Shown here: piece after piece, positions 20,129-42,676 of the stretch
How the letters are laid out: each line of letters begins with the position of its first letter
Position numbering within the stretch: the stretch's first letter is position 1
From: Pollutibacter soli
Lineage (GTDB): Bacteria; Bacteroidota; Bacteroidia; Chitinophagales; Chitinophagaceae
NCBI GenBank assembly: GCA_029269725.1
Contig: JARJHS010000001.1
Span: 496,001 to 560,000, forward strand
Reading direction: 5' to 3'
Length of the DNA: 64,000 nt
Position numbers and translations under genes: made by a program
Notes under the pieces: generated by a model
Seen by the model: only the letters and a program-made list of their open reading frames with translations
Database searches by the model: none
Told to the model about the DNA's origin: nothing

Positions 20129-20148
20129 TCTCCTGCCTCCTTACTCCT
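20129..20148 (-). repeat. 20-nt repeat overlapping the sulfatase stop codon
   Basis: On the minus strand AGGAGTAAGGAGGCAGGAGA includes the TAA stop of the sulfatase. The identical 20-mer occurs on the plus strand at 36683-36702, just after the stop of the third PhyH gene. Confidence 0.65.
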
Positions 20149-21670
20149 TTCTCCTGCCTTTCCTCACATACTCTTCAAACCTCTCAGTAAATTTCCACTC
20201 AAACTCCTTATTTTTCTGATATCCATGATTGGGGTACTTCACTTTCACCGCTTCCATTTCATCAATATATGCTTTCAGCAATTTAGGATCAGCGAGCGGA
20301 TCACGGGTTTCTTTCTGCCATTGCTGAAGTGCTTTTTTTAATTCACGAAGCACCTGTTGCATTTCCGGTTTTTCGGCCAGATCATTCCATTCAGCCGGGT
20401 CGTTATCAAGATCATACAATTCATATTCAGGAGGGAAATGCCAGCGATAATAAGCGCGACGAACGGAATCGGGTGCTGAACGCAATTCAGGTTCTTCCGT
20501 ACCTCCATAAAAATGTTCGTTGAAATGACGTGCATATAAAAAGTATTTCGGGTTTTCTACACCCGGACGAAGATTGTGAATGAGTTTGTAACGGTGATTT
20601 CGAATCCCGCGGGTAGGGTAGAAGAATATTGAAGTACCACCGTCACATTCAGTTGCAAGGTATTTCCTCACCAATGGATCCGGTACATCTTCGAGTATAG
20701 GTCGCAGTGAGTGACCAGCAATTTTTTCTGTTACCGGTTTTGAAGCAAAATCCATAATCGTCGGAAGAAGATCAACAACAGAAACGAGGTCATTATTTAC
20801 GCTGTTTCTATTCTTTACCAATGGACCTCCCATAATCAGGGGGATCTTCATCCCACCTTCATAATTTGACTCCTTCCCCCTGGAGAACTGTGCCCCATGA
20901 TCACCGAGATAAATGATCAGAGTGTTGGAGCTTTTCCCTGCAGAATCAATTGCTTTAAACAATCGTCCACACAATTCGTCCATTCGCTCCATGCTGTTGT
21001 AATAATCCGCTGTATAGTTCAGCAGCCGATCGCTTTTTGTTCCGACAAATGATAATGTTGTTTTCAGATCCTTCCCATCGATAGGTTTTGCTGGCATTCC
21101 TTCAGCCTGCCGAACCAAAGGATAATGTGCATCAGGAAAATTCACCATCAGAAAGAATGGAGAATCTGAAGCATTCATGAATTTTTGCGACTGGCGTATA
21201 TATTCCATCATATTCTTCCTGGCAAAATTTGCATTGTCGATCGCATGGAAATCAAATGGAATTTCAGATTCCGGATTAACATGAATTTTCCCAATGATCC
21301 CGGTGCGGTAACCTGCATTCTGTAAAAACACAGGCAGGGTTTTTATACCGGGATACATATGATACTTATGTGTCGCCAAACCTGTCTGACCATTCTGATG
21401 CGGATACAAACCGGTGAATATCGAACTGCGTGAAGGGCTGCAGAGCGAATAGGTAGTGTATGCATTGGTGAATCGTACACCTTCCTGCGCCAGTTTATCG
21501 AGGAAGGGAGTTTGCAATACTTTTTCGCCATAACAGGAAAGTTCAGGACCGTTGTCCTCCGAAACAATTAATATAATATTCGGCCTGGATGATTGAGCAG
21601 AAACAGAAACAGTAAGCAGAAACAGAAAAATAACAGGCAGTATATGGCGATGTACAGATAGGAATCTCAT
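20141..21670 (-). CDS. Secreted sulfatase, N-sulfoglucosamine sulfohydrolase-like
   Basis: A type I sulfatase. I chose Met at 21670 because a basic MRFLSVHRH followed by ILPVIFLFLLTVSVSAQ is a clean signal peptide; an ATG at 21691 adds seven residues and would overlap a TAnnTTTG-like element. Seen: PNIILIVSEDNGPELSCYG and YSLCSPSRSSIFTGLYPHQNG, where Cys77 of CxPxR is the formylglycine site. The SEDNGPE start resembles heparan N-sulfatase-like branches, but substrate assignment is tentative. It diverges from susC across a 275-bp region carrying two operator-like palindromes, so it is probably co-regulated with the island. The last codons overlap a dispersed repeat. Confidence 0.88.
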   Translation of the reverse strand: MRFLSVHRHILPVIFLFLLTVSVSAQSSRPNIILIVSEDNGPELSCYGEKVLQTPFLDKLAQEGVRFTNAYTTYSLCSPSRSSIFTGLYPHQNGQTGLATHKYHMYPGIKTLPVFLQNAGYRTGIIGKIHVNPESEIPFDFHAIDNANFARKNMMEYIRQSQKFMNASDSPFFLMVNFPDAHYPLVRQAEGMPAKPIDGKDLKTTLSFVGTKSDRLLNYTADYYNSMERMDELCGRLFKAIDSAGKSSNTLIIYLGDHGAQFSRGKESNYEGGMKIPLIMGGPLVKNRNSVNNDLVSVVDLLPTIMDFASKPVTEKIAGHSLRPILEDVPDPLVRKYLATECDGGTSIFFYPTRGIRNHRYKLIHNLRPGVENPKYFLYARHFNEHFYGGTEEPELRSAPDSVRRAYYRWHFPPEYELYDLDNDPAEWNDLAEKPEMQQVLRELKKALQQWQKETRDPLADPKLLKAYIDEMEAVKVKYPNHGYQKNKEFEWKFTERFEEYVRKGRRKE

Positions 21671-21709
21671 ATTCATCTGATAAGCGCCCAAAAGTATTTA
21701 TAATTCATT

Positions 21710-21724
21710 TTATGTCCTACATAA
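21710..21724 (-). promoter_or_regulatory. Operator-like palindrome before the sulfatase
   Basis: TTATGTCCTACATAA matches 13 of 15 positions of TTATGTAGTACATAA found at 21876-21890 before susC. A minus-strand TACTTTTG (21696-21689), a fit to TAnnTTTG, lies 13 nt further toward the gene. No good -33 element was found. Confidence 0.5.
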
Positions 21725-21844
21725 ATATCTAATTTGATTTTTTGATTCATTATTATTCTGAAAATTTAATCCAATACAACTAATTATTTATCAACGCCTA
21801 AACTGTGATTTGGCACCGGATTAGAAAGGTCTTTTTCAAATTAA

Positions 21845-21875
21845 TTTGGAAAAAGAAAATATTTTTCCATCTTTG
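21845..21875 (+). promoter_or_regulatory. Predicted Bacteroidota-type promoter of susC
   Basis: TTTG (21845-21848) and CATCTTTG (21868-21875, seven of eight to TAnnTTTG) are separated by exactly 19 nt, the preferred Bacteroidota spacing. The last G is the first base of the palindromic operator. Confidence 0.55.
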
Positions 21876-21891: not shown

Positions 21892-21944
21892 TACAAAAAA
21901 GACGATCGAAAAATTAACCAACGATTCAAAATGCTTTCTTGCTT

Positions 21945-24900
21945 ATGAAAAAGAAATGGTCTTTTTTTTTAAAGCTGCGGATATTACCCCTGATCGCAGC
22001 CTTATTTTATTTTCACTCAATCGCTAATGCACAATCCGTTAAGGTGAGTGGACGTGTTACTGACAGTCTTGGTAACGGCGTCGGCAATGTGAGCGTGAAA
22101 GTAAAAGGTACCAACACAGGTACCACCACTACCAACGACGGTAGTTTCATAATTACTGCCCCGGGCAATGAGTCTGTACTCGTATTTACGAGTGTTGGTT
22201 TTATACCGCATGAAGTGGCTGTCAGCCAGGGAATCTCTACCATCGTGTTGCGTTCCGAAAACCAGACACTAACAGATGTTGTGGTAATCGGATATACAAC
22301 ACAAACCCGTTCTAAGACATCGGCTTCAGTGGCAAAACTCGGAGTCGACGAATTGAAGAACAGGCCAAGTCCGAATCCCGTGCAGGCGATGCAGGGTAAG
22401 CTCGCTGGTGTATCAGTTCCCATTACTTCCGGTCAGCCAGGTGCGGGAGCAACAAATATCATCATCCGCGGTGGTACAAAACTCAATGTTTATGGTAGCG
22501 GTCTTGGAAACAGCGGCGGTAATCCGGTGGGTGGTGCTGACAATACCGGTCCGTTGGTAGTAATCGATGGTGTATTCAGATCCATGGATGATATTAACCC
22601 TGATAATATAGAATCATTCCAGGTAATGAAAGATGCTGCTTCAACGGCAATCTATGGAGCACGCGGTGCGAATGGTGTGATCGTGATCAAAACAAAAGGT
22701 GGCAAGTTCAACCAGAAAATGAACATCACCTTCAATAACAGGACAACCTGGGAAACACAGTTGCGTGATTACGATTATCTCGATGCGGAGCGTTACCTGA
22801 CATTGGCAAGAACAACCGTATTCAATACAAAAGACCCGCTGGATAAAAATAACCTGCTTTACAATGCTGGTTTTTCAGCTGGTACCAGAAGCTTTACAAC
22901 ACCAGGTCAGTACGGCAACTTCGTATACACGACGGCGTTATATGATAACCTCGTGGCAGTAGAAGGCCAGGCGTATGTTGATAAACTTTTAGCAAGTGGC
23001 TGGAGAACTATGGATGATCCGATCAATCCCGGTTCAAGATTGATTTTTGCAGATAATCATTACCAGGAAAAATTATGGGAAACCGGTCTCTCACAGAATA
23101 ACACACTGGCTATCGATGGCGGAAGCGAAATGGCCAATTACAACATTTCTTCTTCTTATACCGATCAGAAAGGTGTTTTCGCAGGTACCCGGTATAAAAG
23201 ATTTGACATCCTTGGAAATTTCGGTTTTAAAGTGGCTAAGAATGCAAGAATTGATGCGATGGTGAATTACCAGAATGTACAACCCAATTATGTTGAAGCA
23301 TTCCAGAACGATCTTACGCGCGGTACGCGTCTTACTCCATTGATCCGCCTGACCCGCGATGATGGCCGTCCTCATCTCGGAGAATTGTATTCGGCCAGAA
23401 ATCGTTTTCACACACTCTATTATGATGATCTGCGTGTGAAAACTGAAAGATTCATAACAAGGCTGGGAGGAGATATCACTATTATTAAAGGTCTGCATTT
23501 CCGTCCTTCATTCTCTTATCTGATGAACGATTACACGTACATGTTTAAAAGAGATGCTACACCGGCAAACGAAATTCAACCTTCAACACAGCGACAGAAA
23601 AACAGCAATGCAGATAATACCCGGCAGTTCATGATCGATCAGATCCTGAGCTACGATTTTCATATCGGCGAGAAAAACAACTTCTCTGCCCTTGCTGGAT
23701 TTAACTATACCATTAACAGGCGGTCCACAACAACAATCGGTTCACAACGTGCTACCAACGATTACGTGTACACGATCAGTGAACCAGCCACTACAGTTTT
23801 GAATGGACAGACAGTTTCCAATGTTACCAACTTTGGAACGACACTTGGCGAAACCCGGTCTGCGAGCTTCTTTGGCCAGGCGAACTACGATTACGATGGT
23901 AAGTATCTCGCGAGTGCTTCGTTGAGAAGAGATGGTTTCTCGAATTTCGCTCCGGAAAATAAATGGGCAATGTTCCCATCGGTTTCCGCTGGTTGGAACA
24001 TCCATCGTGAAGAATGGTTTAATGTGAAGCCGATCAGTATGCTGAAAATTCGTGGTAGCTGGGGTACAGCAGGTTTGAGTGACCTGAGCATCACAGATAC
24101 ATATGGCGGATATGGTGCAGTTGACTATGCGCGTGGAGCAGGCATCCTTCGTACCAACCTTTCAAACCCTGGTTTGATCTGGGAGACAACAGAAACAACA
24201 GATCTCGCTCTTGATGCAGGATTTTTCAAAAACCGGATCACTCTGACTCTCGGCTGGTACAACAAACTTACCAAAGATCGTTTAGCCTCAAAACCATTAC
24301 CATCTGAATCTCCTTTCCCTTCTATAACATACAACAATGGTGTGTTGCAGAATAAAGGTATCGAAATCGAACTCGGCGCAACCGTAATACAAGCGAAAAA
24401 TTTTACCTGGAGAACCAACTTCGTTTTTGCAAAAAACAATCAGAAAGTACTTGAGCTTCCTGACAACGGCCGTCTGAAAAACAGGCAGGGTGGTGATATC
24501 GTTTACGACCCGAAAGCAAAGGCCAATGTTGAAGTTGGAGGAATCGCAGAAGGAGAAAGACCGTATGCATTCTATGTTTACCAGGTACTCGGAGTTTTTG
24601 CAACTGAAGCTGACGCTCAGGCATGGAATGCAAAAACAAAAGATCTCCTGGCATCTCCACAGGGTATTACCAATGGTAAACATGCCGGTGACTTTATTTT
24701 CAACGACGTGAATGGTGATGGTGTGATCGATACAAAGGATCAGGTTTTCATCGGTTACAGAACTCCGAATATCACCGGTGGATGGCAGAATACTTTCACC
24801 TACAAAGGAATTTCGCTTCGCTTTAATATGGATTATGCACTTGGTCACATGATCAGTAATGGTGCGCTGGCACGTTCACTGGGCCAGGGTCGCGCATTTA

Positions 24901-25304
24901 ACGAAGGTGCTCCTGAGCAGGCTGTTGGTCCGGATATCTGGCAGAAAGAAGGCGACCAGGATAAACAATATGCAAGGTTCTCTTTTGCTGATTTCGATTT
25001 CGGACAACGCAATTACATCAGGTTGGGTACACTCGGCAACAACAACTCATATGGTTCTGATGTATCTGCAATGACTGAAAAAGGTGACTTCCTCGCATTC
25101 CGTGAAATCACACTGGCATACGATATCCCTGCAAGAATCATGAAGAAAATCAAATCAACCGGCATGAATGTTTTCGCAAGCATTTTCAATATCGGTTACC
25201 TGACAAAATACACAGGAATCAATCCTGAAACTTATACAGGTTTTGATGCAGTAGGTTATCCAAGGCCAAGACAGTACACGCTCGGAGCAACCATCAGATT
25301 CTAA
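21945..25304 (+). CDS. SusC/RagA-family TonB-linked outer membrane transporter
   Basis: A TonB-dependent beta-barrel that imports oligosaccharides across the outer membrane with its SusD partner. The ATG at 21945 is preceded in frame only by a TTG two codons upstream; a signal sequence runs to SIANAQSVK. Then come a carboxypeptidase-regulatory-like domain (VSGRVTDSLGNGVGNVSVKVKGTNTGTTT), a TonB-box-like LTDVVVIGYTTQ, the plug with IIIRGGTKLN and STAIYGARGANGVIVIKTKGG, and a barrel ending RPRQYTLGATIRF. Total length of about 1119 residues is normal. A five-codon out-of-frame ORF at 21931-21948 overlaps the start by ATGA. It is followed by susD 38 nt downstream. Confidence 0.96.
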   Translation: MKKKWSFFLKLRILPLIAALFYFHSIANAQSVKVSGRVTDSLGNGVGNVSVKVKGTNTGTTTTNDGSFIITAPGNESVLVFTSVGFIPHEVAVSQGISTIVLRSENQTLTDVVVIGYTTQTRSKTSASVAKLGVDELKNRPSPNPVQAMQGKLAGVSVPITSGQPGAGATNIIIRGGTKLNVYGSGLGNSGGNPVGGADNTGPLVVIDGVFRSMDDINPDNIESFQVMKDAASTAIYGARGANGVIVIKTKGGKFNQKMNITFNNRTTWETQLRDYDYLDAERYLTLARTTVFNTKDPLDKNNLLYNAGFSAGTRSFTTPGQYGNFVYTTALYDNLVAVEGQAYVDKLLASGWRTMDDPINPGSRLIFADNHYQEKLWETGLSQNNTLAIDGGSEMANYNISSSYTDQKGVFAGTRYKRFDILGNFGFKVAKNARIDAMVNYQNVQPNYVEAFQNDLTRGTRLTPLIRLTRDDGRPHLGELYSARNRFHTLYYDDLRVKTERFITRLGGDITIIKGLHFRPSFSYLMNDYTYMFKRDATPANEIQPSTQRQKNSNADNTRQFMIDQILSYDFHIGEKNNFSALAGFNYTINRRSTTTIGSQRATNDYVYTISEPATTVLNGQTVSNVTNFGTTLGETRSASFFGQANYDYDGKYLASASLRRDGFSNFAPENKWAMFPSVSAGWNIHREEWFNVKPISMLKIRGSWGTAGLSDLSITDTYGGYGAVDYARGAGILRTNLSNPGLIWETTETTDLALDAGFFKNRITLTLGWYNKLTKDRLASKPLPSESPFPSITYNNGVLQNKGIEIELGATVIQAKNFTWRTNFVFAKNNQKVLELPDNGRLKNRQGGDIVYDPKAKANVEVGGIAEGERPYAFYVYQVLGVFATEADAQAWNAKTKDLLASPQGITNGKHAGDFIFNDVNGDGVIDTKDQVFIGYRTPNITGGWQNTFTYKGISLRFNMDYALGHMISNGALARSLGQGRAFNEGAPEQAVGPDIWQKEGDQDKQYARFSFADFDFGQRNYIRLGTLGNNNSYGSDVSAMTEKGDFLAFREITLAYDIPARIMKKIKSTGMNVFASIFNIGYLTKYTGINPETYTGFDAVGYPRPRQYTLGATIRF

Positions 25305-25342: not shown

Positions 25343-26818
25343 ATGAAAAAATTTATCAGAGATATAGCGATCATTTTATCATCAGCAGTATTCCTGACCA
25401 GCTGTGAAAAGATGCTGACGGTTACACCACAGTCGGCCATAACCGAAGAAAATTACTTTAAGAATGAAGGTGATTTTGAACCTTACGTTACAGGTATCTA
25501 CACTTTCATGCGTGCAATAACCAACAACGTTACTTATGGAATGGAAAGAGGCGAGGAGCTGATCAGTGCCTCCAACGCACGTTTCACTGTTGCCTGGTCG
25601 CAGGAGCTGTCACCAACATCAGGAGCCATAAATTATAATGACCCCTGGTTTCGTGGGATCGGTAACTGTAACCTGTTGCTGGAGAAAATAAAGGACTTTA
25701 CATTTACTACTGATCCTAATTCCAAAACAAGGATCATGGCAGAGGCATATGCATTGCGCGCTTATTTTTACTTTCACCTCACACGCGTGATCGGTGACGC
25801 GCCGCTGATGTTAACAGCTGTTGTAAATGACAACGTACCATTGTTGCCAAGATCACCTGCTACAGATGTGATGAAACAAATCATCAGCGACGTTGATTCT
25901 GCGATACTCCTGGTCAGATCACTACCCAATTTTACACCCAATAGTTATCCTTCAAAATATCGCTTTGCCTATGGTTCAATGCAGGCTTTAAAGGCCGATG
26001 CGAAACTATGGAGTGCTAAAGTATTGGGTGGCGGAGCTGCTGATTTCAATGATGCAATTGCTGCAATTACAGAAGTTGAAACAACAGGCGTCGCTTTAAA
26101 TGCAGATTTCAAGAATGTTGTTGGATTACGTGCCTCTTCAAATCCGGAAGTTATTCTCGCAGCATTTTATAACCGTGATGAAACCAGCAATAACTATGTA
26201 GTGAATGCACTTCCATTCATTAATATCGTTGCAGGTGCTGTTAATATTGATAGCTTACCAACAACTGCAAGCTCCGCGAATGGCCAGGGGGCCTACCAGA
26301 TCAGTCCATTGTCAAGGTCCATCTTTAATGTAAATCCGACCGACAAAAGAATTCCATATACCTGGGTTACTGAACGTACGGCAACTACAACAAAAATTTC
26401 ATGGATCACAAAATATCCGGGTACAAAATATCCTGAAGATCGCGTTCCTGACAACGACCTGATCATTTATCGCCTTGCAGATCTTTACCTGATGAAGGCG
26501 GAGGCTTATGCGGCATTGGGAAATACAACTGATGCAAAAACGTATCTCGATAAGGTGCGGGTACGTGCCGGCATAGGAGAGTACACAGGCTCACTCGATA
26601 AAGCGGCTGTGGAAAGAGAGATTCTTGATGAGCGCGCCCGCGAACTGTTTTTCGAAAACAAGCGCTGGTTCGATCTGGTACGTTTCCACTACGGAGGTAC
26701 AATCAATGTATACAATTATGTACCCAACCTTGCCGGAAAGACGACACCGTTATTCTGGCCGTTGAACACGACCGTGCTGGCAAATAACAAACTTATTGAG
26801 CAGACTGCAGGCTACTAA
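25343..26818 (+). CDS. SusD/RagB-family surface glycan-binding lipoprotein
   Basis: The lid lipoprotein of the SusCD complex, 491 residues. Cys21 (FLTSCEKM) is the lipidation site. Seen: the N-terminal PQSAITEENYFKNEGDFEPYVTGIYTFMR, RAYFYFHLTRVIGDAPLM with the TPR-like helices, and the closing DERARELFFENKRWFDLVRF, a hallmark of the family. Downstream, the stop codon abuts an AACGTTT heptad repeat. The pairing with SusC and the following sialidase and lyase genes suggest a ligand that carries a nonulosonic acid or a related acidic sugar. Confidence 0.95.
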   Translation: MKKFIRDIAIILSSAVFLTSCEKMLTVTPQSAITEENYFKNEGDFEPYVTGIYTFMRAITNNVTYGMERGEELISASNARFTVAWSQELSPTSGAINYNDPWFRGIGNCNLLLEKIKDFTFTTDPNSKTRIMAEAYALRAYFYFHLTRVIGDAPLMLTAVVNDNVPLLPRSPATDVMKQIISDVDSAILLVRSLPNFTPNSYPSKYRFAYGSMQALKADAKLWSAKVLGGGAADFNDAIAAITEVETTGVALNADFKNVVGLRASSNPEVILAAFYNRDETSNNYVVNALPFINIVAGAVNIDSLPTTASSANGQGAYQISPLSRSIFNVNPTDKRIPYTWVTERTATTTKISWITKYPGTKYPEDRVPDNDLIIYRLADLYLMKAEAYAALGNTTDAKTYLDKVRVRAGIGEYTGSLDKAAVEREILDERARELFFENKRWFDLVRFHYGGTINVYNYVPNLAGKTTPLFWPLNTTVLANNKLIEQTAGY

Positions 26819-26895: not shown

Positions 26896-28143
26896 ATGTT
26901 GAGAATATCAAATATCAAGTGTTGTGCAATGATGTGCTCATTGTTGATTTTCTGGACCCTTGGTTCCAATGCTCAACAGGCGGCCTTTACAGATACATTA
27001 CTTTTATTTGAGCCTAACCGCGATGGATACTCGATATATCATTGCCCTGCCCTCCTGGTTACAAAGAAAGGTACAATACTCGCTTTTGCAGAAGGCAGGT
27101 ACGGAAAAGGAAAGGATCATGATGAAATGGACCTCGTATACAGGCGAAGTACAAATGGGGGACAATCATGGGAGAATTCGAAAGTTCTCATGCCGTTCAC
27201 CAAGGGCAAACCAACCAGTAATATCACTCCGATCGCTGACAGAAACGGCACTGTTCATTTGATTTATCAGAATAACTATTCAAATGTCTTCTATTTAAAA
27301 TCGATTGACGAAGGAAAAACATGGAGCAAGGCAAAAGATATTACTTATGCATTCGATGCATTTAAAAGTGAGTATAACTGGAAAGTAGTTGCGCCCGGCC
27401 CGGGACATGCCATTCAATTAAGAAAAGGTCGCCTGGTAGTGCCGGCATGGTTATGTATTCCCAACAAAAACATCCCGGGTGGTGATCATCGTCCAAGCTG
27501 TGTAGTAACAGTATATAGCGATGACAACGGGAACACCTGGAAGCGCGGAAGCATCATCGCTAATAACGGTGATATCGCTTCAAATAATTCTGCGGACAGC
27601 ATATTTAATCCGAGCGAATCAGTTCTCATTGAACTGGCTGATGGAAGAGTAATGATCAATATGCGCAATGAAGCGCTGGCTAATCGGAGAGTTGTTGCCA
27701 TTAGTCCGGATGGCGCTACCAACTGGACTAGGCCATATTTTGACAACCATCTTTTCGAACCTGTTTGTCAATCCAGCATGGTCAGATTTTCCGGAAGTAA
27801 TGACGATAAGACCAGGATACTTTTTGCAAACCCGGACAGTCGCAACAATTCAGTGAGTACAAGAAAATCTCAAAAAGTATATCGGCCGAGGGAAAACATT
27901 ACAGTTCGCATGAGCTATGATGAAGGAAATACCTGGCCTGTTTCAAAAGTCCTGCATGAAAAAGGATCGGGTTATTCTGATCTGCAGGTCGATTCAAATG
28001 GAACAATCTACGCCCTGTACGAAATCCGTAATGGAAATGATAATGATTGGGTGTACCGCGTCGTCGTTCGAAGGTTTAACCTGGAATGGATGACGGAAGG
28101 AAAAGATTTTATCTCAAAAAGAAATAGCACCGCTGCTAAGTAA
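26896..28143 (+). CDS. Sialidase-fold (BNR/Asp-box) glycosidase with altered FRIP motif
   Basis: A secreted six-bladed propeller protein of 415 residues with a signal peptide ending near SNAQQ. Four Asp-boxes are seen (STNGGQSW, SIDEGKTW, SDDNGNTW, SYDEGNTW). Where GH33 enzymes have Y/F-R-I-P, this has YHCPALLV, so the first arginine of the carboxylate-binding triad is His49. The likely acid/base Asp74, the INMRN arginine, the RPRENITV arginine and the GYSDLQV tyrosine remain. It probably acts on a sialic-acid-like or uncharged analogue, or has lost activity. It is followed 10 nt later by the lyase gene, so they share a transcript. Confidence 0.85.
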   Translation: MLRISNIKCCAMMCSLLIFWTLGSNAQQAAFTDTLLLFEPNRDGYSIYHCPALLVTKKGTILAFAEGRYGKGKDHDEMDLVYRRSTNGGQSWENSKVLMPFTKGKPTSNITPIADRNGTVHLIYQNNYSNVFYLKSIDEGKTWSKAKDITYAFDAFKSEYNWKVVAPGPGHAIQLRKGRLVVPAWLCIPNKNIPGGDHRPSCVVTVYSDDNGNTWKRGSIIANNGDIASNNSADSIFNPSESVLIELADGRVMINMRNEALANRRVVAISPDGATNWTRPYFDNHLFEPVCQSSMVRFSGSNDDKTRILFANPDSRNNSVSTRKSQKVYRPRENITVRMSYDEGNTWPVSKVLHEKGSGYSDLQVDSNGTIYALYEIRNGNDNDWVYRVVVRRFNLEWMTEGKDFISKRNSTAAK

Positions 28144-34158: not shown

Positions 34159-34923
34159 ATGTTTTCAGATTTGCAAAAGCAACAACTCGTCAAACAATTC
34201 CGCGAAGATGGTTTTGTGGTGATGAAAGGATTTTTGAACGATGCAGAGCTAAGCGAAGTTCGTGAACACCTGGATAAACTGATCAGTGAAAAAGTGCCGT
34301 CCATGCCGCCGGAAAAAGCTTTCTATGAGGATCACAAAGATAAAACTTCTCTTAAACAGATCCAGGCACTTTATGATGACGATGCCTTGTTTCATTCGAT
34401 GATGTTCGAAAGCAAATTTGAAGAACTCGCATCGATATTATTGGAAGATGCCGTCATTGGAAAAAACATGCAGTATTTCAACAAACCTCCAAAGATTGGC
34501 AAGCCAACACCACCACACCAGGATGGATATTATTTCATGCTCGAACCGAATGAAGCTGTAACGATGTGGCTGGGTCTTGAAAATGTGGACGAAGAAAACG
34601 GATGTGTCAGATATATTAAAGGGTCGAACAATAAAGGTATGCGTCAGCATACGAGAACACAAACACTCGGTTTCTCCCAGGGGATTTCGGATTTCGGCAC
34701 CGATGATGATAAAGCTAATGAAGTCTGGTTCGAAACAAACGCGGGTGATCTTTTGGTGCATCACTCAATGACGATCCATCGTGCAGACGGTAACAATAGT
34801 CAGGATCGTAGCCGCAAAGCCCTTGGCTTTATATACTATGCTGAAAAAGCAAAGGAAGACGCATCAGCAAAAAAGGAATACCAGGAAAAACTCGCAAAAG
34901 AAATCAGGGAAAAAGTAAAGTAA
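34159..34923 (+). CDS. PhyH-family Fe(II)/2-oxoglutarate dioxygenase (second of three)
   Basis: A 254-residue oxygenase. His120 and Asp122 (TPPHQDGYYFML) with His207 (MTIHRADGN) form the iron site, and Arg217 or Arg219 (NSQDRSRKALGF) should bind 2-oxoglutarate. It begins FREDGFVVMKGFLND, a typical PhyH N-terminus. The stop overlaps the next ATG by one base (TAATG), so it is translationally coupled to the NHL propeller gene. This tight link suggests both act on the same metabolite. Confidence 0.9.
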   Translation: MFSDLQKQQLVKQFREDGFVVMKGFLNDAELSEVREHLDKLISEKVPSMPPEKAFYEDHKDKTSLKQIQALYDDDALFHSMMFESKFEELASILLEDAVIGKNMQYFNKPPKIGKPTPPHQDGYYFMLEPNEAVTMWLGLENVDEENGCVRYIKGSNNKGMRQHTRTQTLGFSQGISDFGTDDDKANEVWFETNAGDLLVHHSMTIHRADGNNSQDRSRKALGFIYYAEKAKEDASAKKEYQEKLAKEIREKVK

Positions 34924-35873
34924 TGGAACAAATCATCGGTCATAATTCACATCGATATACAATTGATAAAAACTGGGGTATACAGCATCCTGCAAAATAT
35001 CCTGTGAATGATTGCCACGAAATGGTGATGGATAGTAAAGGGCGTTTGTTCATGCTAACTAACGACACAAGGAATAATATCCTGATCTATGATAAATCAG
35101 GAAAAATAACCGCCAGTTGGGGCACTACATATCCTGGCGCGCATGGTTTATCGATCTGTAACGAAAATGGAACGGAATTCCTGTTCATTACTGATACTGA
35201 CAGACAGCAGGTTTTCAAAACTACGCTGGATGGTGAGGAAGTGATGGTTATGAGTGTACCGAAAGAGATAAAGGAATACACGTCCGGTGAGCAATTCAAA
35301 CCTACTGAAACTGCGGTTGCGCCTGATGGTGATATTTATGTTACTGATGGATACGGTTTGCAGTTTGTCATTCAGTACAATTCAAAAGGTGAATATATCA
35401 GGCATTGGGGAGGTCTGGGTAATGGAGATGAACAGTTTGATTGCGTACATGGTATTGCCATAGACAATCGAAATCCGGATGCTGTATCCCTGATCATTAC
35501 ATCCCGTAACCACAATGCGTTAAAGCATTTTACCCTCGATGGAAAATACCTGTCAACCACAAAACTTCCCGGATCATTTATTTGCCGGCCGGTGGTTCAT
35601 GGCGAAAACATTTACGGCGCTGTTTTCAGATCAGAAATGAATACGTTGAACAACTCAGGATATATTACCATCCTTGATAAAAACAATAAGGTGATTTCAA
35701 CACCGGGTGGTACTGAACCTGTATATACTAACGGTGTGCTTCAATTGCAGAAAAAAGCAGATCACACTTTTCTACATCCGCATGATGTATGCGTAGACGA
35801 TGAAGAAAATATTTATGTACCCCAATGGAATTCGGGCAAAACCTACCCGGTGAAACTTACAAGAATCAAATAA
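34923..35873 (+). CDS. NHL-repeat six-bladed beta-propeller protein
   Basis: A 316-residue protein without a signal peptide, so probably cytoplasmic. NHL-type blades repeat through the sequence (CHEMVMDSKGRLFMLTND, GLSICNENGTEFLFITDTDRQQVFKT, TAVAPDGDIYVTDGYGLQFVIQYN, VHGIAIDNRNPDA, HDVCVDDEENIYVPQWNSG). The fold is shared by SMP-30-like lactonases, peptidylglycine amidating lyases and pure scaffolds. No specific catalytic residues can be assigned by eye. It overlaps the second PhyH gene by 1 nt and is followed 17 nt later by the third, so all are in one operon. Confidence 0.82.
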   Translation: MEQIIGHNSHRYTIDKNWGIQHPAKYPVNDCHEMVMDSKGRLFMLTNDTRNNILIYDKSGKITASWGTTYPGAHGLSICNENGTEFLFITDTDRQQVFKTTLDGEEVMVMSVPKEIKEYTSGEQFKPTETAVAPDGDIYVTDGYGLQFVIQYNSKGEYIRHWGGLGNGDEQFDCVHGIAIDNRNPDAVSLIITSRNHNALKHFTLDGKYLSTTKLPGSFICRPVVHGENIYGAVFRSEMNTLNNSGYITILDKNNKVISTPGGTEPVYTNGVLQLQKKADHTFLHPHDVCVDDEENIYVPQWNSGKTYPVKLTRIK

Positions 35874-35890
35874 TCTAAATCATATTGAAA

Positions 35891-36673
35891 ATGTCACTGC
35901 ACAGAAATTTCTTTAATTATCGTGATCTAACTTCTGAAGAGCTGGCCATCTTCAAGGAGAATGGTTATCTCGTCATTAAGAATATTCTTACTGCTGAAGG
36001 TCTTGATCAAATGCGCAGGGAATGTATGACTGCCTGGAATGCAGAGAAACAGGCATTCGATCCGGCTAAGTCGTGGTTGCAGAATTCTTTGCTTGTAAAT
36101 ATTCATCACCAGGCGCCTGCTGTCCGTGATTATTATTTCGAAGGTCCGTTGGTTGATATGGCTGCACAAATTATCGGGCCGAATATAAAAGGTGCTACAT
36201 CGCAACTCACTTTTAAAATGGCTGGCAATACAAAACCATTTGGGTGGCACCAGGACAATGGTTATGGTGAGCTTGAACCGTACAATGCCCTTACTACTTT
36301 GACTGCCCTCGATGATACTGATCAGGGGAATGGTTGTTTATGGTTGATTCCTGGTAGTCACGCGGGTGGACAGATACGTGTAAATCAGACGGAAGAAGAA
36401 AAACAAAAGAAATCTGAGATCATTGTTGAAGCGGATGACAGTCTCGCAGTTCCAATGGAAATGCGTGCCGGAGATGCACTGATATTTAATTGCTGGATGT
36501 TACACAAATCAGATGGTAATCTTTCGAAAGATCGTGATCGAAGGATTCTGTTCCTGCGTTATGCCGATGCTGATGCTGTGGAAGTATATAATAATCGCAG
36601 ACCCAGGTTGGGCAGATTAGTGAAAGGAGAAACAAGGTTTACTGAGGTGAAGGAGTTTGAAACAAACATTTAG
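35891..36673 (+). CDS. PhyH-family Fe(II)/2-oxoglutarate dioxygenase (third of three)
   Basis: A 260-residue oxygenase from the ATG at 35891; an in-frame TTG two codons upstream is less likely. His120 and Asp122 (FGWHQDNGYGEL) with His205 (MLHKSDGN) form the iron site, and RDRR just after holds the likely 2-oxoglutarate arginine. The central DDTDQGNGCLWLIPGSH matches the family well. It ends one operon segment; a GGAGTAAGGAGGC repeat follows its stop and an 82-nt gap leads to the sialidase. Confidence 0.9.
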   Translation: MSLHRNFFNYRDLTSEELAIFKENGYLVIKNILTAEGLDQMRRECMTAWNAEKQAFDPAKSWLQNSLLVNIHHQAPAVRDYYFEGPLVDMAAQIIGPNIKGATSQLTFKMAGNTKPFGWHQDNGYGELEPYNALTTLTALDDTDQGNGCLWLIPGSHAGGQIRVNQTEEEKQKKSEIIVEADDSLAVPMEMRAGDALIFNCWMLHKSDGNLSKDRDRRILFLRYADADAVEVYNNRRPRLGRLVKGETRFTEVKEFETNI

Positions 36674-36755: not shown

Positions 36756-37871
36756 ATGATATCTGTAACTAAAAAATTCTTTTTTGTTGTTTCGTTGATG
36801 CTCAGCGTACAATTTCTGAATGCACAAACGCTGAATAGTATTTACAAGGCAGGTGAAGCGGGTTACAATTGTTTTAGAATTCCGGCGATTGTAAAATCTA
36901 CAAAGAATACAATGCTTGCTTTTGCAGAAGCAAGAGTGAAGAATTGCGGTGATGCAGGTGATATCGACATCGTTCTAAAACGATCAATGGACGGAGGCAA
37001 AACCTGGTCCGATATCATCTTGGTCTGGAATGATGCTGAAAATACCTGCGGTAATCCGGCACCTGTGGTGGATGAAAGTACAGGCAACATTGTTCTGGTT
37101 ACTACCTGGAACCTTGGAACGGATCATGAAAGGGACATCATCGCTCAAACGAGCAAGGATAGCCGAAGAGTGTATGTTCTCAATTCTGCCGATGATGGCG
37201 TGACCTGGTCTGCAGCTAAAGAAATCACATCAACTACAAAGAAAGCAGACTGGACCTGGTATGCGACCGGTCCGTGCAACGGTATTCAAATGCGTGAAGG
37301 CCCACATAAAGGCAGACTTGTAATCCCTTGCGATCATATTGAAGCTGCTTCAAAAAAATATTATTCTCATTCTATTCATTCAGATGATGGAGGTGTCAGC
37401 TGGACACTCGGTGGTACCACGCCGATGGATTCTGTAAATGAATGTACAGTAGCAGAATTGCCTGGTGGTAAGCTGATGTTGAACATGCGTAACTATGGGA
37501 AGTTGAAAAAATTCCGCCAGGTAGCCATCAGTGATGATGGTGGGGAGTCCTGGAAAGATCAGCATTGGGATATGCAACTGCCTGAACCCATTTGCCAGGG
37601 TAGTTTGATCTGGTACAACTATCCAGGGAAAAAACCAATGCTCGCTTTTTCGAATCCGGCAAATCAAAAATCAAGATCGAATATGACAGTGAAGCTAAGC
37701 ACCAACAAAGGTAAATCCTGGAAAAAGAAGGTGGAGCTTTACGCCGGTCCATCAGCATATTCAAATCTTGTCGTACTTCCCAATGGTAATCTCGCTTGCT
37801 TTTATGAAGCCGGAGTAGCTAAGCCGTATGAAGGAATTGTTTTCGAAGAAATCGACTTTTCCAGATTGTAA
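36756..37871 (+). CDS. nanH: Exo-alpha-sialidase, GH33
   Basis: A secreted glycosidase that releases terminal sialic acids. It has 371 residues with a signal peptide ending near FLNAQ. All GH33 hallmarks are visible: Arg41 in FRIPA, probable acid/base Asp66 (NCGDAGDIDIV), Glu229 assisting the nucleophile, Arg245 (LNMRN) and Arg307 completing the triad, and Tyr335 (SAYSNLVV) as nucleophile. Asp-boxes SMDGGKTW, SADDGVTW, SDDGGVSW and SDDGGESW are present. It contrasts with the altered paralogues at 26896 and 38934. It is the best evidence that real sialic acids are among the substrates of the island. Confidence 0.93.
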   Translation: MISVTKKFFFVVSLMLSVQFLNAQTLNSIYKAGEAGYNCFRIPAIVKSTKNTMLAFAEARVKNCGDAGDIDIVLKRSMDGGKTWSDIILVWNDAENTCGNPAPVVDESTGNIVLVTTWNLGTDHERDIIAQTSKDSRRVYVLNSADDGVTWSAAKEITSTTKKADWTWYATGPCNGIQMREGPHKGRLVIPCDHIEAASKKYYSHSIHSDDGGVSWTLGGTTPMDSVNECTVAELPGGKLMLNMRNYGKLKKFRQVAISDDGGESWKDQHWDMQLPEPICQGSLIWYNYPGKKPMLAFSNPANQKSRSNMTVKLSTNKGKSWKKKVELYAGPSAYSNLVVLPNGNLACFYEAGVAKPYEGIVFEEIDFSRL

Positions 37872-37979
37872 AAAATAAAAAATAACCCCTGTGTTCTATG
37901 TTCATCCGATGTAGTGCGGAAAAAATTTGAACCACATAGGCACATAGGAAACAAAGTATACGCAAAAATAAACAGGATT

Positions 37980-38912
37980 GTGCTTACAGCTAAAAATCTC
38001 AAAGGAAACTGGGGAACCTTACTGTTACCCATCAACGAAGACAATTCCATCGACTTCGGACGATTGGGAAATGAACTGGATTACATGACCGCAGCAAAGA
38101 TTGATGGCATATACTCCAATGGTACAGCAGGGGAGTTCCACAATCAATCAGAAGCAGAGTTTGATAAGATACAGGAATTGATGGCCGAAAAATGTCGTCG
38201 TGCCGGAATGCCTTTTCAGATTGGTGCGAGCCATCCTTCTCCGTTGATTTCATTGGAAAGATTGCGAAGAGCCAGATCATTGAATCCTTCAGCTTTTCAG
38301 ATCATTCTTCCTGATTGGGTAACACCAAATTCTAAGGAGAGAACTGACTTCATAGCAGGGATGGTTGACGCAGCTGCTGATATTCCACTCGTACTGTATA
38401 ATCCGCCTCACGCAAAACAGGTATTGAATCCATCAGACCTGCAGGAATTATCAAAAACATTTCCGCAATTGATTGGTGTGAAACTAGCAGGTGGAAATGA
38501 AGATTGGTTTAGGCAGATGAAATGGAGCATCGACTCATTTTCCGTGTTTGTACCAGGGCATTTTCTTGCTACAGGTTTTGCAACAGGCGTTGCCGACGGC
38601 GCTTATTCGAATGTAGCGTGTATTAATCCCAAAGCAGCACAGGATTGGTGGAACCAGATGCAAACCGATATCAGGAGCGCTATCAGCTTGCAGGAAAGGA
38701 TACTCGCTTTTTTTGAAGAATGTATCGTGCCATTTAAGAATGCCGGTTTCTCAAATCCGGCGCTCGATAAACTCCTTGCCGCGGTCGGCGGCTGGTCTGA
38801 TATAGGAACAAGATTGCGTTGGCCATATCGCTGGATCCCTCCTGATGTGGTAAAGAAAGTGGCTGACCGCGCTAAATACCATCTACCGGAATTTTTTAAA
38901 GTACAGTTATAA
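37980..38912 (+). CDS. DHDPS-family aldolase/lyase (second in island)
   Basis: A class I aldolase-fold protein. The frame opens at a GTG at 37914, but homology begins at LKGNWGTLLLPINEDNSIDF, so I take the GTG at 37980, which has AGGA a few bases upstream. It is then 310 residues. The signature SNGTAGEFHNQSEAEF replaces the NAL GSNGEG loop. Tyr140 (LVLYNPPHAKQ) and Schiff-base Lys168 (IGVKLAGG) are in place. The loop differs enough from the nanA-like paralogue at 28154 to suggest another substrate, for example a 2-keto-3-deoxy sugar acid made by the nearby enolase-superfamily enzyme. Confidence 0.85.
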   Translation: MLTAKNLKGNWGTLLLPINEDNSIDFGRLGNELDYMTAAKIDGIYSNGTAGEFHNQSEAEFDKIQELMAEKCRRAGMPFQIGASHPSPLISLERLRRARSLNPSAFQIILPDWVTPNSKERTDFIAGMVDAAADIPLVLYNPPHAKQVLNPSDLQELSKTFPQLIGVKLAGGNEDWFRQMKWSIDSFSVFVPGHFLATGFATGVADGAYSNVACINPKAAQDWWNQMQTDIRSAISLQERILAFFEECIVPFKNAGFSNPALDKLLAAVGGWSDIGTRLRWPYRWIPPDVVKKVADRAKYHLPEFFKVQL

Positions 38913-38933: not shown

Positions 38934-40256
38934 ATGAGAAAAAAATTATTACAGGCAATTCTGTTGATGATATGCAGTAATACTGTGGTCGCGCAGGCAA
39001 TCGATACTACCGACCGTATCGCGGATACGATCAATATCCAGGATAAAAATTATTCAACAAAGAAACTTCCGGGCGGTTTGCAGGTGAAAGAAGACATTGG
39101 TATAGCAAGTTTCCCCTGGGTAAATGCGAAACTAATTCACCAGGCGCGTAACCGGATGGGAGGTCTTTACGAGACACGTGCTACGGTAACCCCCAAAGGT
39201 GATTATTTACTGATGTTTCCCGATGGTGGTCACTACGGGCCAGCAAAAGGGAAGAAAGTAAATGACATGCTTTCGATGCGCTCCCGTGACAAAGGAAAAA
39301 CATGGGAGCCGGCAGTCATAGCATTCGATATCGATTACAACCAGCATGGCTTTATACCCTTCATTCCCAAAGGCAGCTCACGAATTTATGCCTTTGGAAC
39401 GCAACCGATTGTTACACTTTATAATCCCGAAAACGGCTTGCAGGAAAATTCGCCTATAGGTTTCCGTTATTCCGATGATGACGGGTTTCATTGGTCCGAA
39501 GTGAGAATAATTCAACCGAAGAACGACTCCGGTTTTCGAGGAATGTCGGTAATGCGCATGACCGAGACCGATAAAGGCACCTGGATACTCGGCTCGCATG
39601 AAGGCGACTGGAGCTACAAGCCTTTGATCACCCGCCAGTATTTACTTCGTTCAACTGACCAGGGAAAAAGCTGGGAATTATTACCCGGCCGAAGACATGG
39701 CGGTTGGCATGCAAAAGGTTTCGGTCGAATGGATGAAGGTCGCCCGCTGGCTTTACAAGGAGATAGCGTATTTCTGATGACGCGTACCCCGGAAGGCCAT
39801 TTCTGGTCAGCATACAGCGGTGATGATGGTAAAACATGGTCGGAACTGAAACCAACACCACTCGTACAACCTGATGCGCCGCCAATGCTGTACAAACTTT
39901 CTGATAACAAAACACTGATCGCTTTTCATCACAATCGGCATCATGACCTGAATTATACAGGCCTGAGCGGCACAAAGAGGGAAATCATGATGGACAGATC
40001 CGAATTGTGGTTTTCGCTTTCTTATGATAATGGACATAGCTGGACGGAGCCGCAATTATTTTTATTGAATGCATTGGCAGAGTCATATCCATCGCATTTC
40101 AGAAATTATCAGTGCAGTTATATCGATGCATTTGTTGACCAGGGGCAGATACACATTTTTATGCCGCATCGCTGGCAGCGTGTCGTGTATTTTACGGTCA
40201 AAGAATCAGATCTGAAAAAATTTCCTACGAAGAAAACGTTGTTGTCGGCTAAATAA
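38934..40256 (+). CDS. BNR/Asp-box sialidase-like propeller, divergent
   Basis: A secreted 440-residue protein (signal peptide ending near VVAQA). Asp-boxes are visible (SRDKGKTW, SDDDGFHW, STDQGKSW, SGDDGKTW, SYDNGHSW). The position of the FRIP motif instead reads YETRATVTPKGDYLLMFPDGG, so the GH33 arginine plus proline motif is missing, and no clear LNMRN segment is found. It is 22 nt after the second aldolase gene. It could be a glycosidase of a newer propeller family, or a carbohydrate-binding protein. Activity on sialic acid should not be assumed. Confidence 0.78.
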   Translation: MRKKLLQAILLMICSNTVVAQAIDTTDRIADTINIQDKNYSTKKLPGGLQVKEDIGIASFPWVNAKLIHQARNRMGGLYETRATVTPKGDYLLMFPDGGHYGPAKGKKVNDMLSMRSRDKGKTWEPAVIAFDIDYNQHGFIPFIPKGSSRIYAFGTQPIVTLYNPENGLQENSPIGFRYSDDDGFHWSEVRIIQPKNDSGFRGMSVMRMTETDKGTWILGSHEGDWSYKPLITRQYLLRSTDQGKSWELLPGRRHGGWHAKGFGRMDEGRPLALQGDSVFLMTRTPEGHFWSAYSGDDGKTWSELKPTPLVQPDAPPMLYKLSDNKTLIAFHHNRHHDLNYTGLSGTKREIMMDRSELWFSLSYDNGHSWTEPQLFLLNALAESYPSHFRNYQCSYIDAFVDQGQIHIFMPHRWQRVVYFTVKESDLKKFPTKKTLLSAK

Positions 40257-40408: not shown

Positions 40409-40475
40409 GCAGTAGATTCAAAGAGTAGCAGATAATATCAACATTTAGATATGCAGAGCAAACGTATACTATAAA

Positions 40476-40560: not shown

Positions 40561-40579
40561 ATTTGAAAATAAAATTGAA

Positions 40580-41536
40580 ATGTCATTCAAAATTTTAATA
40601 GGGGTTGACGATTTTAACGAAGAACAAATCGACAGAATCCGTCGTTCTGTCAATGTTTTAGGAACAATTGAAATCATTAGTCAGGGGGCGACACCTGTAG
40701 AATATATTTTAGCATTGAAGTCTGCAGATATTTGTATCGGTTGGCCAAAGCCGGAATGGATAAAAAATTCAAGGCTTGGATTTTTACAGATTGGTAGTAG
40801 CGGATGGGATAATTATCAGAATCTTGGTCTGGAAACAAAAGAAAATTTTGCATTGTGTACAGGTAAAGGTTTATATACCATCGGTGTTGCTGAACATGCG
40901 ATTGCAATGATGTTTGCATTGGTTCGTCGAATACCGGTGCATGTACATGATAAAGATCATAAAGAGTTCCGGAGACATTTGCCGTATGCAAGCGAGATTG
41001 AGGGAGCAACTGCATGCATCATCGGAATGGGTGAAATAGGAAAAGCAATACAAAAACGCTGTGAGGGACTTGGAATGAAATCGATTGCTGTTGTCAGGTC
41101 TATAAATAATGCAGACAAGAATTCAGCTACAAGGTATTTTGATTTTGAACGCCTCCATGAAGCGATCACAGATGCTGATCATATTTTTTTGACAATTCCT
41201 GCCAGTCCCGGAAATGCCGGGCATTTCAGTGATGCATTTTTCAGTGCATGCAAATCGTCTGCATACTTTTATAATATTTCCAGAGGATCAAATGTCGATG
41301 AAGAAGCATTGTTGAATGCATTGACAAAAAACAAAATTGCGGGAGCAGGGCTCGATGTTACAAATATTGAGCCTTTACCAAAAGATAGCAGGCTTTGGGA
41401 GCTGGGTGACAATGTACTGATCACCGGACATAGCGCGGGATTAACCAATGGATTTGCAGAAAGATTCTGCCAGCTCACAATCAATAATCTCAACAACTAT
41501 TTCAATAAACAGCCCCTCATCAACAGGGTGATCTAA
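40580..41536 (+). CDS. D-2-hydroxyacid dehydrogenase family protein (second in island)
   Basis: A 318-residue NAD(P)-dependent dehydrogenase. Rossmann motif GMGEIGKAIQ is near residue 152. Catalytic Arg (YNISRGSNVDEE), Glu (DVTNIEPLP) and His (ITGHSAGL) are all present. It resembles the dehydrogenase at 31763 in layout but differs through most of the sequence, so the two probably take different substrates. The enolase-superfamily gene starts 12 nt after its stop, making a two-gene unit. A two-hairpin repeat sits just upstream of its start. Confidence 0.88.
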   Translation: MSFKILIGVDDFNEEQIDRIRRSVNVLGTIEIISQGATPVEYILALKSADICIGWPKPEWIKNSRLGFLQIGSSGWDNYQNLGLETKENFALCTGKGLYTIGVAEHAIAMMFALVRRIPVHVHDKDHKEFRRHLPYASEIEGATACIIGMGEIGKAIQKRCEGLGMKSIAVVRSINNADKNSATRYFDFERLHEAITDADHIFLTIPASPGNAGHFSDAFFSACKSSAYFYNISRGSNVDEEALLNALTKNKIAGAGLDVTNIEPLPKDSRLWELGDNVLITGHSAGLTNGFAERFCQLTINNLNNYFNKQPLINRVI

Positions 41537-41548
41537 ATGATATAACGG

Positions 41549-42676
41549 ATGCGGATAAGCGGAATTACAACAAGAATCGTAAGACAATCGTCAGACCTTT
41601 GGTACGCGCCAAACCCAATACCTCCGGGCTATACACCGTATTTTGATTTTCCGTTGACAACCATTCACACAACGGAAGGTGTTGAAGGTTATACAATGGA
41701 TTATGGACCATTAGGTCAGGGGAGGCCATCTGCTCATGCAGTACATGATATTTATTATCACGACCTGGTGGGAAAAAATCCGCTGCATCATGAAGCCATC
41801 TGGCAGGAGTTCAGGAAAAAACAACGGCATCTTTATAATTTCCGTGAAGCTATCTGGGGAAATCTTGATGTTGCATTATGGGATATCAAAGGGAAAGTTG
41901 CTGGAATGTCGATTGCAACATTACTCGGCAAAGTGCGTGACAAAATTCCGACTTACAGCAGTTGTCCACCACAAACCGTTCTGACTATTGATGATGTTGC
42001 TGAACAGATCCTGAAAAAAATCAACCAGGGATTTCGTGGGGTGAAACTGCAATTGTCTGGCGGTTCAAAAATTGATATTCCAAAACTGAAGAAAGCAAGG
42101 GAAGTTGCTGGCGACGATTTTCCATTAATGCTGGATTCTTCCGCTGTTCTCAGTTTTGAAGACGCCTTAAAAATCGGTTATGCGTTGGATGAATTGAAAT
42201 ACGAATGGTTTGAAGAGCCGTTTCCTGATGCACATATTCTTCAATTGAAAAAATTATCACAGGCCGTTAGAACACCTGTCCTTGCTGCGGAAACGGTTGG
42301 CGTTTTTGAACTACCACACTATATGACCGATGGCGCGATCGATATCATCCGCGGCGATGTACATCACAAAAGTGGAATTACCGGTGTGATGAAGGCGATA
42401 GCCATGTGTGAATTGATGGGTTACGAATTTGAAATTCATACTGCTGCAGCACCTTTACTCGATATTGCCAATCTTCATGTAGGCTGTGCAACACGCCTGA
42501 CGCGTTTTATGGAATCACATCATCCCATGTTCAGGTTTGGTTTAAAAAACAATCCCCTGGAGATTGATGCGGAGGGATACCAGCATTGTCCGACCGGTCC
42601 CGGGCTGGGAGTGGAGATCGACTGGGATTGGATGGATGATCATACAGTGAAAATGATTAAAGATCAGCAGGAATAG
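41549..42676 (+). CDS. Enolase-superfamily (mandelate racemase/muconate lactonizing) sugar-acid enzyme
   Basis: A 375-residue cytoplasmic enzyme that abstracts the proton alpha to a carboxylate; most relatives dehydrate sugar acids. Metal ligands are visible as Asp196 (LMLDSS), Glu222 (YEWFEEPF) and Glu248 (LAAET). Asp270 (IIRGDVHHKSG) and His297 (EIHTAAAP) make the mandelate-racemase-type dyad. The KxK lysine motif reads GVKLQ, so the second lysine is Gln168. That leaves the His/Asp dyad as main base, as in several sugar-acid dehydratases. With the second aldolase it could form a non-phosphorylative dehydratase/aldolase branch. Confidence 0.87.
   Translation: MRISGITTRIVRQSSDLWYAPNPIPPGYTPYFDFPLTTIHTTEGVEGYTMDYGPLGQGRPSAHAVHDIYYHDLVGKNPLHHEAIWQEFRKKQRHLYNFREAIWGNLDVALWDIKGKVAGMSIATLLGKVRDKIPTYSSCPPQTVLTIDDVAEQILKKINQGFRGVKLQLSGGSKIDIPKLKKAREVAGDDFPLMLDSSAVLSFEDALKIGYALDELKYEWFEEPFPDAHILQLKKLSQAVRTPVLAAETVGVFELPHYMTDGAIDIIRGDVHHKSGITGVMKAIAMCELMGYEFEIHTAAAPLLDIANLHVGCATRLTRFMESHHPMFRFGLKNNPLEIDAEGYQHCPTGPGLGVEIDWDWMDDHTVKMIKDQQE

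Follow-up and report, generated by a model that had tools for sequence, protein, structure and literature searches.

In Pollutibacter soli (assembly GCA_029269725.1, contig JARJHS010000001.1, positions 496,001–560,000; this 64,000-nt stretch is the window, and all coordinates below refer to it), an aldolase of the N-acetylneuraminate lyase (NAL) type, NAL1, lies in a block of sialidase-fold, transporter, oxygenase and dehydrogenase genes together with a second aldolase of the DHDPS family, here called M. NAL1 belongs to a separate lyase clade, newly recognised here, that carries Asn at position 47 and is linked to M, and beside whose members no epimerase was found. No known epimerase for N-acetylmannosamine (ManNAc) was found in the host genome. 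With a probability that we place just above even, we read the block as a polysaccharide utilization locus serving a nonulosonic (sialic-type) acid that yields no ManNAc on aldol cleavage, most simply 2-keto-3-deoxynononic acid (Kdn), with M belonging to a second module. The substrate, the order of the steps and the roles of M, the dehydratase, the dehydrogenases and the oxygenases are proposals, set out below.

Bacterial use of sialic acid needs a lyase, a ManNAc epimerase and a kinase; in the Bacteroidetes-type operon the parts are NanOU, the NanL lyase, the AGE-type epimerase NanE-II and RokA. The sialic acid operons of Bacteroides fragilis and Tannerella forsythia are of this type, according to excerpts of two papers (PMC3969230, PMC10017367). 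Neither known route of ManNAc use was found in the host, whose genome of 6.1 Mb has a reported completeness of 99.99%. NanE was not found genome-wide: the sole match to PF04131 is partial, scores 20 bits and lies in a GGGP synthase. Nor was a ManNAc-type AGE epimerase found in the host genome; the only AGE-family protein above the cut-off is the cellobiose 2-epimerase EpiA (340 bits as EpiA, 92 bits as N-acylglucosamine 2-epimerase). The original prediction, made from the letters of this stretch, had described an island without the usual ManNAc route. That absence extends to the whole genome, where no complete nan route was found in the form of NanE or a ManNAc-type AGE epimerase, and the additional genes of the island are co-conserved with its SusC/SusD and lyase core. 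No kinase family was recognised in the block by Pfam; ROK kinases elsewhere in the genome were not searched.

NAL1 (28154–29080) is closest among solved structures to 5afd (E = 4e-66) and 6h4e (E = 1e-65), both named N-acetylneuraminate lyase. Its aligned GIKYT, YYYHIP and GLDE segments keep the Schiff-base Lys, the Tyr and the sugar-binding Asp–Glu pair, and it lacks the Thr of the GxTGE motif, having Asn at position 47 (here and below, residue roles in NAL, sialidases and 2-oxoglutarate (2OG) oxygenases are those that we take these residues to have). With NAL1 as query, 28 of 345 Bacteroidota genomes matched at E ≤ 1e-40. Of these, the window genome was treated separately; the other 27, and five genomes with M, were searched for AGE, NanE and M. 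In a lyase tree of 60 rows, comprising 58 different sequences, NAL1 falls inside a clade of 31 rows with support of 100/99 (G227/L059, G465/L104 and G480/L075 are the same genomes under two labels, judged by their near-identical lyases). Residue 47 is Asn (GxNGEG) in all 31 clade rows; outside the clade it is Thr in 28 of 29 rows and Ser in one. M lies in the same locus in 29 of the 31 clade rows, and two rows are without it. AGE is absent from the examined stretch of every clade row, and a different group of 18 rows holds all but one of the 14 AGE-adjacent lyases. The resulting contrast in AGE adjacency, 0/31 in the clade vs 14/29 outside, gives p = 4e-6, a value that is only descriptive because the rows are related and were partly chosen through M. 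When the analysis was confined to the 31 rows from the draw of 345 genomes, which were not chosen through M, AGE adjacency was 0/5 for Asn47 lyases vs 14/26 for the others (p = 0.048; 15/27 when the draw match G068:C6, with AGE ~6 kb off and outside the tree, is added), and M stood beside three of the five Asn47 lyases (window, G480 and G465). Genes are counted here as beside each other when no more than about 11 kb apart on the same contig. The stretches examined for the clade span 11–40 kb, several of them breaking off within a few kb of the lyase at one end, and assembly fragmentation can conceal neighbours; in G378 AGE lies beside the lyase in fragments, and in G622 it lies about 10 kb from the lyase. 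Among 40 genomes of the genus of locus L077 there were 26 lyases, nine of which have Asn at 59–71% identity (one being L077's own). The metagenome-assembled genome (MAG) of L077 is deposited as Sphingobacterium thalpophilum, a name that is probably wrong; its genus-mates include the uncultured MAG of L056. A further lyase group (L200, L202, L203 and L199) carries GxTGDF, with Asp for the usual Glu, and three of its four members are AGE-adjacent.

Four genomes keep the two kinds of lyase at separate places. In three of them, G320 (the genome of L058), G344 (that of L121, Pedobacter panaciterrae) and G350 (that of L074), AGE lies 3–6 kb from a second lyase with ~41% identity to NAL1, which has Thr in the motif and a sialidase-type match nearby, and the Asn47 lyase is found elsewhere. 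G352 shows the same separation: its Asn47 lyase has no AGE by it, and a Thr lyase at a different site does. The Asn47 locus is therefore not simply a nan locus from which the epimerase has been lost. In 12 genomes of clade rows, the surroundings of the AGE genes (13 stretches) contained neither M nor an Asn47-clade lyase; L308, L314 and L315 cover only 3–10 kb. The lyase clade, Asn47 and the genomes with two loci fit a different nonulosonic acid as the substrate, as far as sequence comparison can suggest it, and do not prove it. Together, the genome-wide absence of the epimerases, the lyase clade and the genomes that keep both kinds of locus strengthen the idea of a non-standard nonulosonic-acid island. 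Its first half, an island without the usual ManNAc route and with co-conserved extra genes, stands as observed; that the acid is a different one, and that an oxidative step takes part in the pathway, we keep conditional, the oxidative step being a guess.

M (37914–38912) is a member of the DHDPS family by Pfam, as is NAL1, in agreement with the original prediction. That it is an aldolase is indicated by its fold and by the Schiff-base Lys167 and Tyr139, which at least 98% of 78 rows retain. In place of the sugar-binding Asp–Glu pair of NAL, M has Pro-Gly-His, and its other conserved motifs are His143-x-Lys145 and an Arg279-(Trp or Arg)-Pro-Tyr end. A structure model built from eight rows (mean predicted local distance difference test score 78.8) confirms the DHDPS/NAL fold only. 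Foldseek places M about equally near NAL and DHDPS structures, and its similarity to the solved 2-keto-3-deoxygluconate (KDG) aldolase 4uxd is weak (E = 1.6e-5). M was also considered as a replacement for the ManNAc epimerase and rejected in that role, since locus L125 has M, a lyase and AGE together and M keeps the aldolase active-site residues. A non-phosphorylative Entner–Doudoroff type module consists of a sugar-acid dehydratase and a DHDPS-family 2-keto-3-deoxy-acid aldolase. By analogy with such non-phosphorylative sugar-acid routes, the simplest chemistry for M would be that of an aldolase following a dehydratase. Dehydratase genes are indeed found near M: an MR_MLE enzyme in the window, L095, L112 and L119, an ILVD_EDD enzyme in L072, and another MR_MLE enzyme in L077 and L089. 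The gene-based prediction thus resembles the known modules in setting an MR_MLE or ILVD_EDD dehydratase near a DHDPS-family aldolase, and differs from them in that no aldose dehydrogenase was recognised in the block, that the genes sit in a sialidase locus and that M is only weakly like 4uxd.

A strong M orthologue is present in 8 of 298 genomes of the order, the window's included, the other seven being 46–60% identical. A scan of genome contigs with M gave 336 relatives, and the best 80 of these, together with seven regions from the order search, make up the 87 loci examined. A NAL1-type lyase is also present in 33 of them and lacking in 54. The loci with both enzymes typically add SusC/SusD, sialidases, a NanM-type mutarotase and an SSF or MFS transporter, and in some of them a GntR-FCD regulator or a SASA esterase is present as well. 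Nearly the whole window set recurs in two Larkinella loci, L095 and L112, which run from SusC (cut by the end of the stretch) through SusD, BNR1, another BNR protein, NAL1, the NanM–SSF fusion, PhyH2, M, the dehydrogenase 2HADH2 and BNR3 to the enolase-superfamily enzyme (77% and 76% identity). Locus L072 holds SusD, BNR1, NAL1, NanM–SSF, the dehydrogenase 2HADH1 and a second BNR1-type protein, followed by the ILVD_EDD dehydratase, a PhyH3 fragment, M, BNR3 and 2HADH2; in L077 the other MR_MLE enzyme overlaps a 2HADH1 relative and is followed by PhyH3 and M. Across the 87 loci, clusters of neighbouring genes include SBP_bac_5 transporters (29 loci), a second DHDPS-family enzyme (28), sulfatases (13) and SASA proteins (9). 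M also occurs with sialidase-fold proteins in a Phycisphaerales-named MAG (L094) among the 80 loci, and on 145 plasmid records (E ≤ 1e-50), all from Rhizobium, Sinorhizobium, Neorhizobium or Phyllobacterium; a scan of viral contigs with M found no relative. Two of the plasmid loci, L245 (Rhizobium johnstonii pRL12) and L244 (a Neorhizobium petrolearium plasmid), hold a GntR-FCD regulator, an ABC transporter and two DHDPS-family enzymes including M. In L125, positions 157–13108 hold GntR and SBP_bac_5-type transporter clusters, a sialidase-fold protein, a GFO/IDH oxidoreductase before M, then M, the lyase and AGE.

We propose the following scheme. First, the canonical sialidase BNR2 (36756–37871) would free the acid, and the SusC/SusD pair (21939–25304 and 25343–26818) would carry the glycan or the acid through the outer membrane. 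The NanM domain of a fusion between a NanM-type kelch mutarotase and an SSF sodium:solute symporter (29163–31745) would then equilibrate the anomers, and the fused symporter would import the acid. NAL1 would split it into pyruvate and a hexose; with Kdn as the simplest choice of acid, the hexose would be mannose, for which no ManNAc epimerase would be needed. The second module, consisting of M, a sugar-acid dehydratase and a 2-hydroxyacid dehydrogenase, with the PhyH oxygenases, would work on a further acid intermediate or on a modification; M, as a Schiff-base aldolase, may release a second pyruvate with the help of the dehydratase. Kdn fits best because it dispenses with a ManNAc epimerase, because a Kdn-specific aldolase and a KDNase are reported from Sphingobacterium in an excerpt of a review (PMC10017367), and because human NPL cleaves KDN to mannose, according to an excerpt of another paper (PMC13220900). 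The Sphingobacterium pair resembles our system in the proposed substrate and in coming from Bacteroidota, a likeness drawn from the excerpted description only and not from sequence. A more specific version, which we regard as quite unlikely, is a two-aldolase, phosphate-free Kdn-type route in environmental Bacteroidota: NAL1 would yield pyruvate and mannose, the mannose would be oxidised to an aldonate, the enolase-superfamily or ILVD/EDD dehydratase would make a 2-keto-3-deoxy acid from it, and M would cleave this acid to a second pyruvate and glyceraldehyde, with the PhyH oxygenases stripping modifications from the imported sugar. No description of such a route was found in the open-access literature text searched.

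Several observations weigh against a Kdn-type locus with a second M module. M also occurs together with the ManNAc route: in L125, from a Caldilineaceae MAG of the Chloroflexota, M, a Thr47 lyase and AGE lie in one run, and in G250 AGE lies about 16 kb from M. We tallied AGE in 32 M-locus genomes including the window's, sorting the hits by similarity and NCBIfam; completeness is known for the window genome only. AGE or a close relative is present in 15 of these carriers, an AGE-like protein in three more (L252–L254 were counted as AGE-like) and none in 14, which brings the carriers with such a gene to 18/32; L125 has it within the locus. Pedobacter carriers of the Asn47 locus (L062, L064 and L070) are among those that lack AGE. 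Nine carriers have PF04131 matches over the family cut-off, all partial and at 26–32 bits (best 31.8), eight of the nine lying in frames of 418–542 residues; we judge that these are not NanE, the only weak match identified as a protein being the window genome's own, the GGGP synthase. M-linked lyases with Thr also exist outside the clade (G081, L076, L111 and L125), and the lyase of L279, only 38% identical and outside the tree, likewise has Asn, so that Asn alone is an imperfect mark. Residue 47 presumably lies at the pyruvate end of the active site, which leaves a link between it and the C5 substituent unproved. The mapping of Asp50 of the published Kdn aldolase is ambiguous, as motif numbering differs among lyases in the 40 genomes of L077's genus, and this residue might lie in the GxTGDF group instead. 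As for the second module, a dehydratase is present in 6 of 34 loci with both NAL and M (the window included) and in 3 of 54 M loci without NAL; two of the latter three count by 24–27% matches only, and one lies almost 20 kb from M. Finally, Pfam recognised no aldose dehydrogenase in the block, to which the search was confined.

It is possible, if less probable, that the island is mixed: the NAL1 part would handle a sialic-type acid, and M, BNR3, 2HADH2 and the enolase-superfamily enzyme would act independently, as a module for a second acid contained in the same polymer. That acid might then be a 2-keto-3-deoxy or aldonic acid derived from 3-deoxy-D-manno-octulosonic acid (Kdo), 3-deoxy-D-lyxo-heptulosaric acid (Dha) or a uronate, with the module carried along, which we rate at the same level of doubt. 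Such independence would suit the 54 of 87 M loci that have no NAL1-type lyase, 33 of which are Rhizobiales by their deposited names, many with SBP_bac_5 ABC transporters and the second DHDPS enzyme. It would also suit the Microvirga locus L089, in which no lyase was found and where, at 9458–12124, only 3 bases separate M from a downstream MR_MLE gene whose product shares 51% identity with the L077 enzyme, and transporter genes lie upstream. However, M stands beside three of the five Asn47 lyases in the draw that was not chosen through M, and PhyH3 is rare: 4 of 345 genomes of the phylum match it at E ≤ 1e-40, and each of the four also has M and a NAL1-type lyase (in G465, PhyH3 and M are on different contigs).

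Another, rather unlikely, explanation is a locus for N-acetylneuraminic or N-glycolylneuraminic acid in which ManNAc would be handled by an unrecognised or unlinked enzyme, while M, the oxygenases and the dehydrogenases would process modified side groups or further sugars from that glycan. SusD is closest to NanU (the best NCBIfam match, at 170 bits, far under the NanU cut-off of 425), and the kelch domain is close to NanM families. The coexistence of M, lyase and AGE in L125 and the 18 carriers with AGE or AGE-like genes point in the same direction, as do the nine M loci with SASA, the sialate O-acetylesterase family. SASA matches were present in 7 of the 28 clade loci and in 7 of the 15 loci with a linked epimerase; this comparison is biased, since it was mostly M that led to the clade loci, and the 15 others owe their choice to a nearby AGE-family match. 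On the other hand, the host and 13 other carriers have no AGE-like gene, AGE is common beside other lyases and never found beside those of the Asn47 clade, and four genomes have, in addition, a Thr lyase at another site with an epimerase near it. That degradative genes without a common substrate accumulated here by chance, as the sporadic sulfatase, PhyH1 and 2HADH1 might suggest, is very improbable, being contradicted by the conservation of the core, with a near-complete set in two Larkinella genomes and subsets in many genera.

The block shares parts with known systems and differs from them in others. Like the Bacteroidetes sialic acid operon, it has SusC/SusD (the SusD being nearest to NanU, though far under that family's cut-off), a sialidase, a NAL-type lyase, a NanM-type mutarotase and an inner-membrane transporter. 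Unlike that operon, it has a lyase of the Asn47 clade, no AGE epimerase was found in the locus or the host genome, the SSF transporter is fused to the mutarotase, and M, PhyH oxygenases, 2-hydroxyacid dehydrogenases and a dehydratase are added. With the Escherichia coli nan pathway (NanA, NanK and NanE) it shares the lyase family and the NanM-type mutarotase and differs in that NanE was not found in the host genome (NanK was not searched). A metagenome survey uses nanE as a marker of sialic acid catabolism and reports that, outside the human body, sialidase genes outnumber nanE by an average factor of ~21, according to an excerpt (PMC10570557). A lyase clade without NanE or a neighbouring AGE would escape this marker and, provided that it acts on Kdn or another relative, could explain part of the excess of sialidase over nanE.

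Open reading frames of the window were assigned by Pfam and NCBIfam scans, and every gene that the original prediction had named is present where it was placed. The strand consistency that it described applies to the run of 15 plus-strand genes that begins with SusC (21939) and ends with the enolase-superfamily gene (42676), and not to the sulfatase (20141–21691), which is transcribed divergently from the minus strand. Intergenic spacing within the 15 genes is –1 to 167 bp, except for 444 bp before PhyH2 and 323 bp before 2HADH2; because of these two gaps, the block possibly comprises more than one transcript. SusC matches the TonB-dependent transporter family TIGR04056 (SusC/RagA) with 692 bits, and SusD is a lipoprotein. 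The predicted fusion of mutarotase and symporter is real, the NANM kelch and SSF domains lying in a single 860-residue frame. The enolase-superfamily (MR_MLE) enzyme (41549–42676), which resembles sugar-acid dehydratases, has relatives of 74–77% identity in L095 and L112 (Larkinella) and L119 (Spirosoma), and none at E ≤ 1e-60 in the other 344 Bacteroidota genomes.

All three sialidase-fold proteins have BNR/Asp-box Pfam matches and, as expected, one is canonical and two are divergent. BNR2, which is GH33-like, matches bacterial sialidases over residues 32–358 of 371 and keeps the arginine of the RIP motif (FRIP). In BNR1 (26896–28143) the first Arg is lost (YHCP); its closest relative, in L072, likewise lacks it (MHVP), and the other BNR1-type rows compared keep it, so a binding role or a changed specificity is possible for BNR1. 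In BNR3 (38934–40256) the motif is missing; relatives of 63–70% identity occur in L072, L095 and L112. Of the two D-2-hydroxyacid dehydrogenases, 2HADH1 (31763–32704, family 1) has relatives in L072 (69%) and L077 (40%), and 2HADH2 (40580–41536, family 2) has relatives of 50–53% in L072, L095 and L112. The three PhyH proteins, assigned as Fe(II)/2OG oxygenases, have an intact iron-binding triad (HxD...H). PhyH2 (34159–34923) and PhyH3 (35885–36673) recur across M loci, with relatives of 51–69% in nine and 57–82% in ten other M loci, respectively; no clear orthologue of PhyH1 (32872–33714) was found in the loci examined, where only 25% matches occur (L075 and L077). The NHL/6-bladed propeller protein between PhyH2 and PhyH3 (34923–35873) has relatives of 60–67% in L071, L075, L077 and G071.

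The sulfatase is of type I, with a CSPSR motif and a Pfam Sulfatase match of 2e-48. It is regarded as accessory because relatives (45–48%) occur in only two other M loci (G208 and G081). Its place as a core member was rejected, with matches in 4 of 28 Asn47-clade loci and 1 of 15 epimerase-linked loci in the same biased comparison as for SASA. Elsewhere in the host genome, the surroundings of the cellobiose 2-epimerase gene (L037, G000:C2, 6441–17414) form another acid-sugar cluster, with a galactonate-dehydratase-like enzyme, an RraA-like aldolase, a PanS-type transporter, a deacetylase-family amidohydrolase and a DgaE-like pyridoxal-phosphate (PLP) ammonia lyase. Downstream of the block and outside it, the minus strand at 43378–49185 encodes an HODM_asu-like haem oxidase subunit, a gamma-glutamyltranspeptidase and a kelch/malectin/PKD protein sorted by the type IX secretion system (T9SS).

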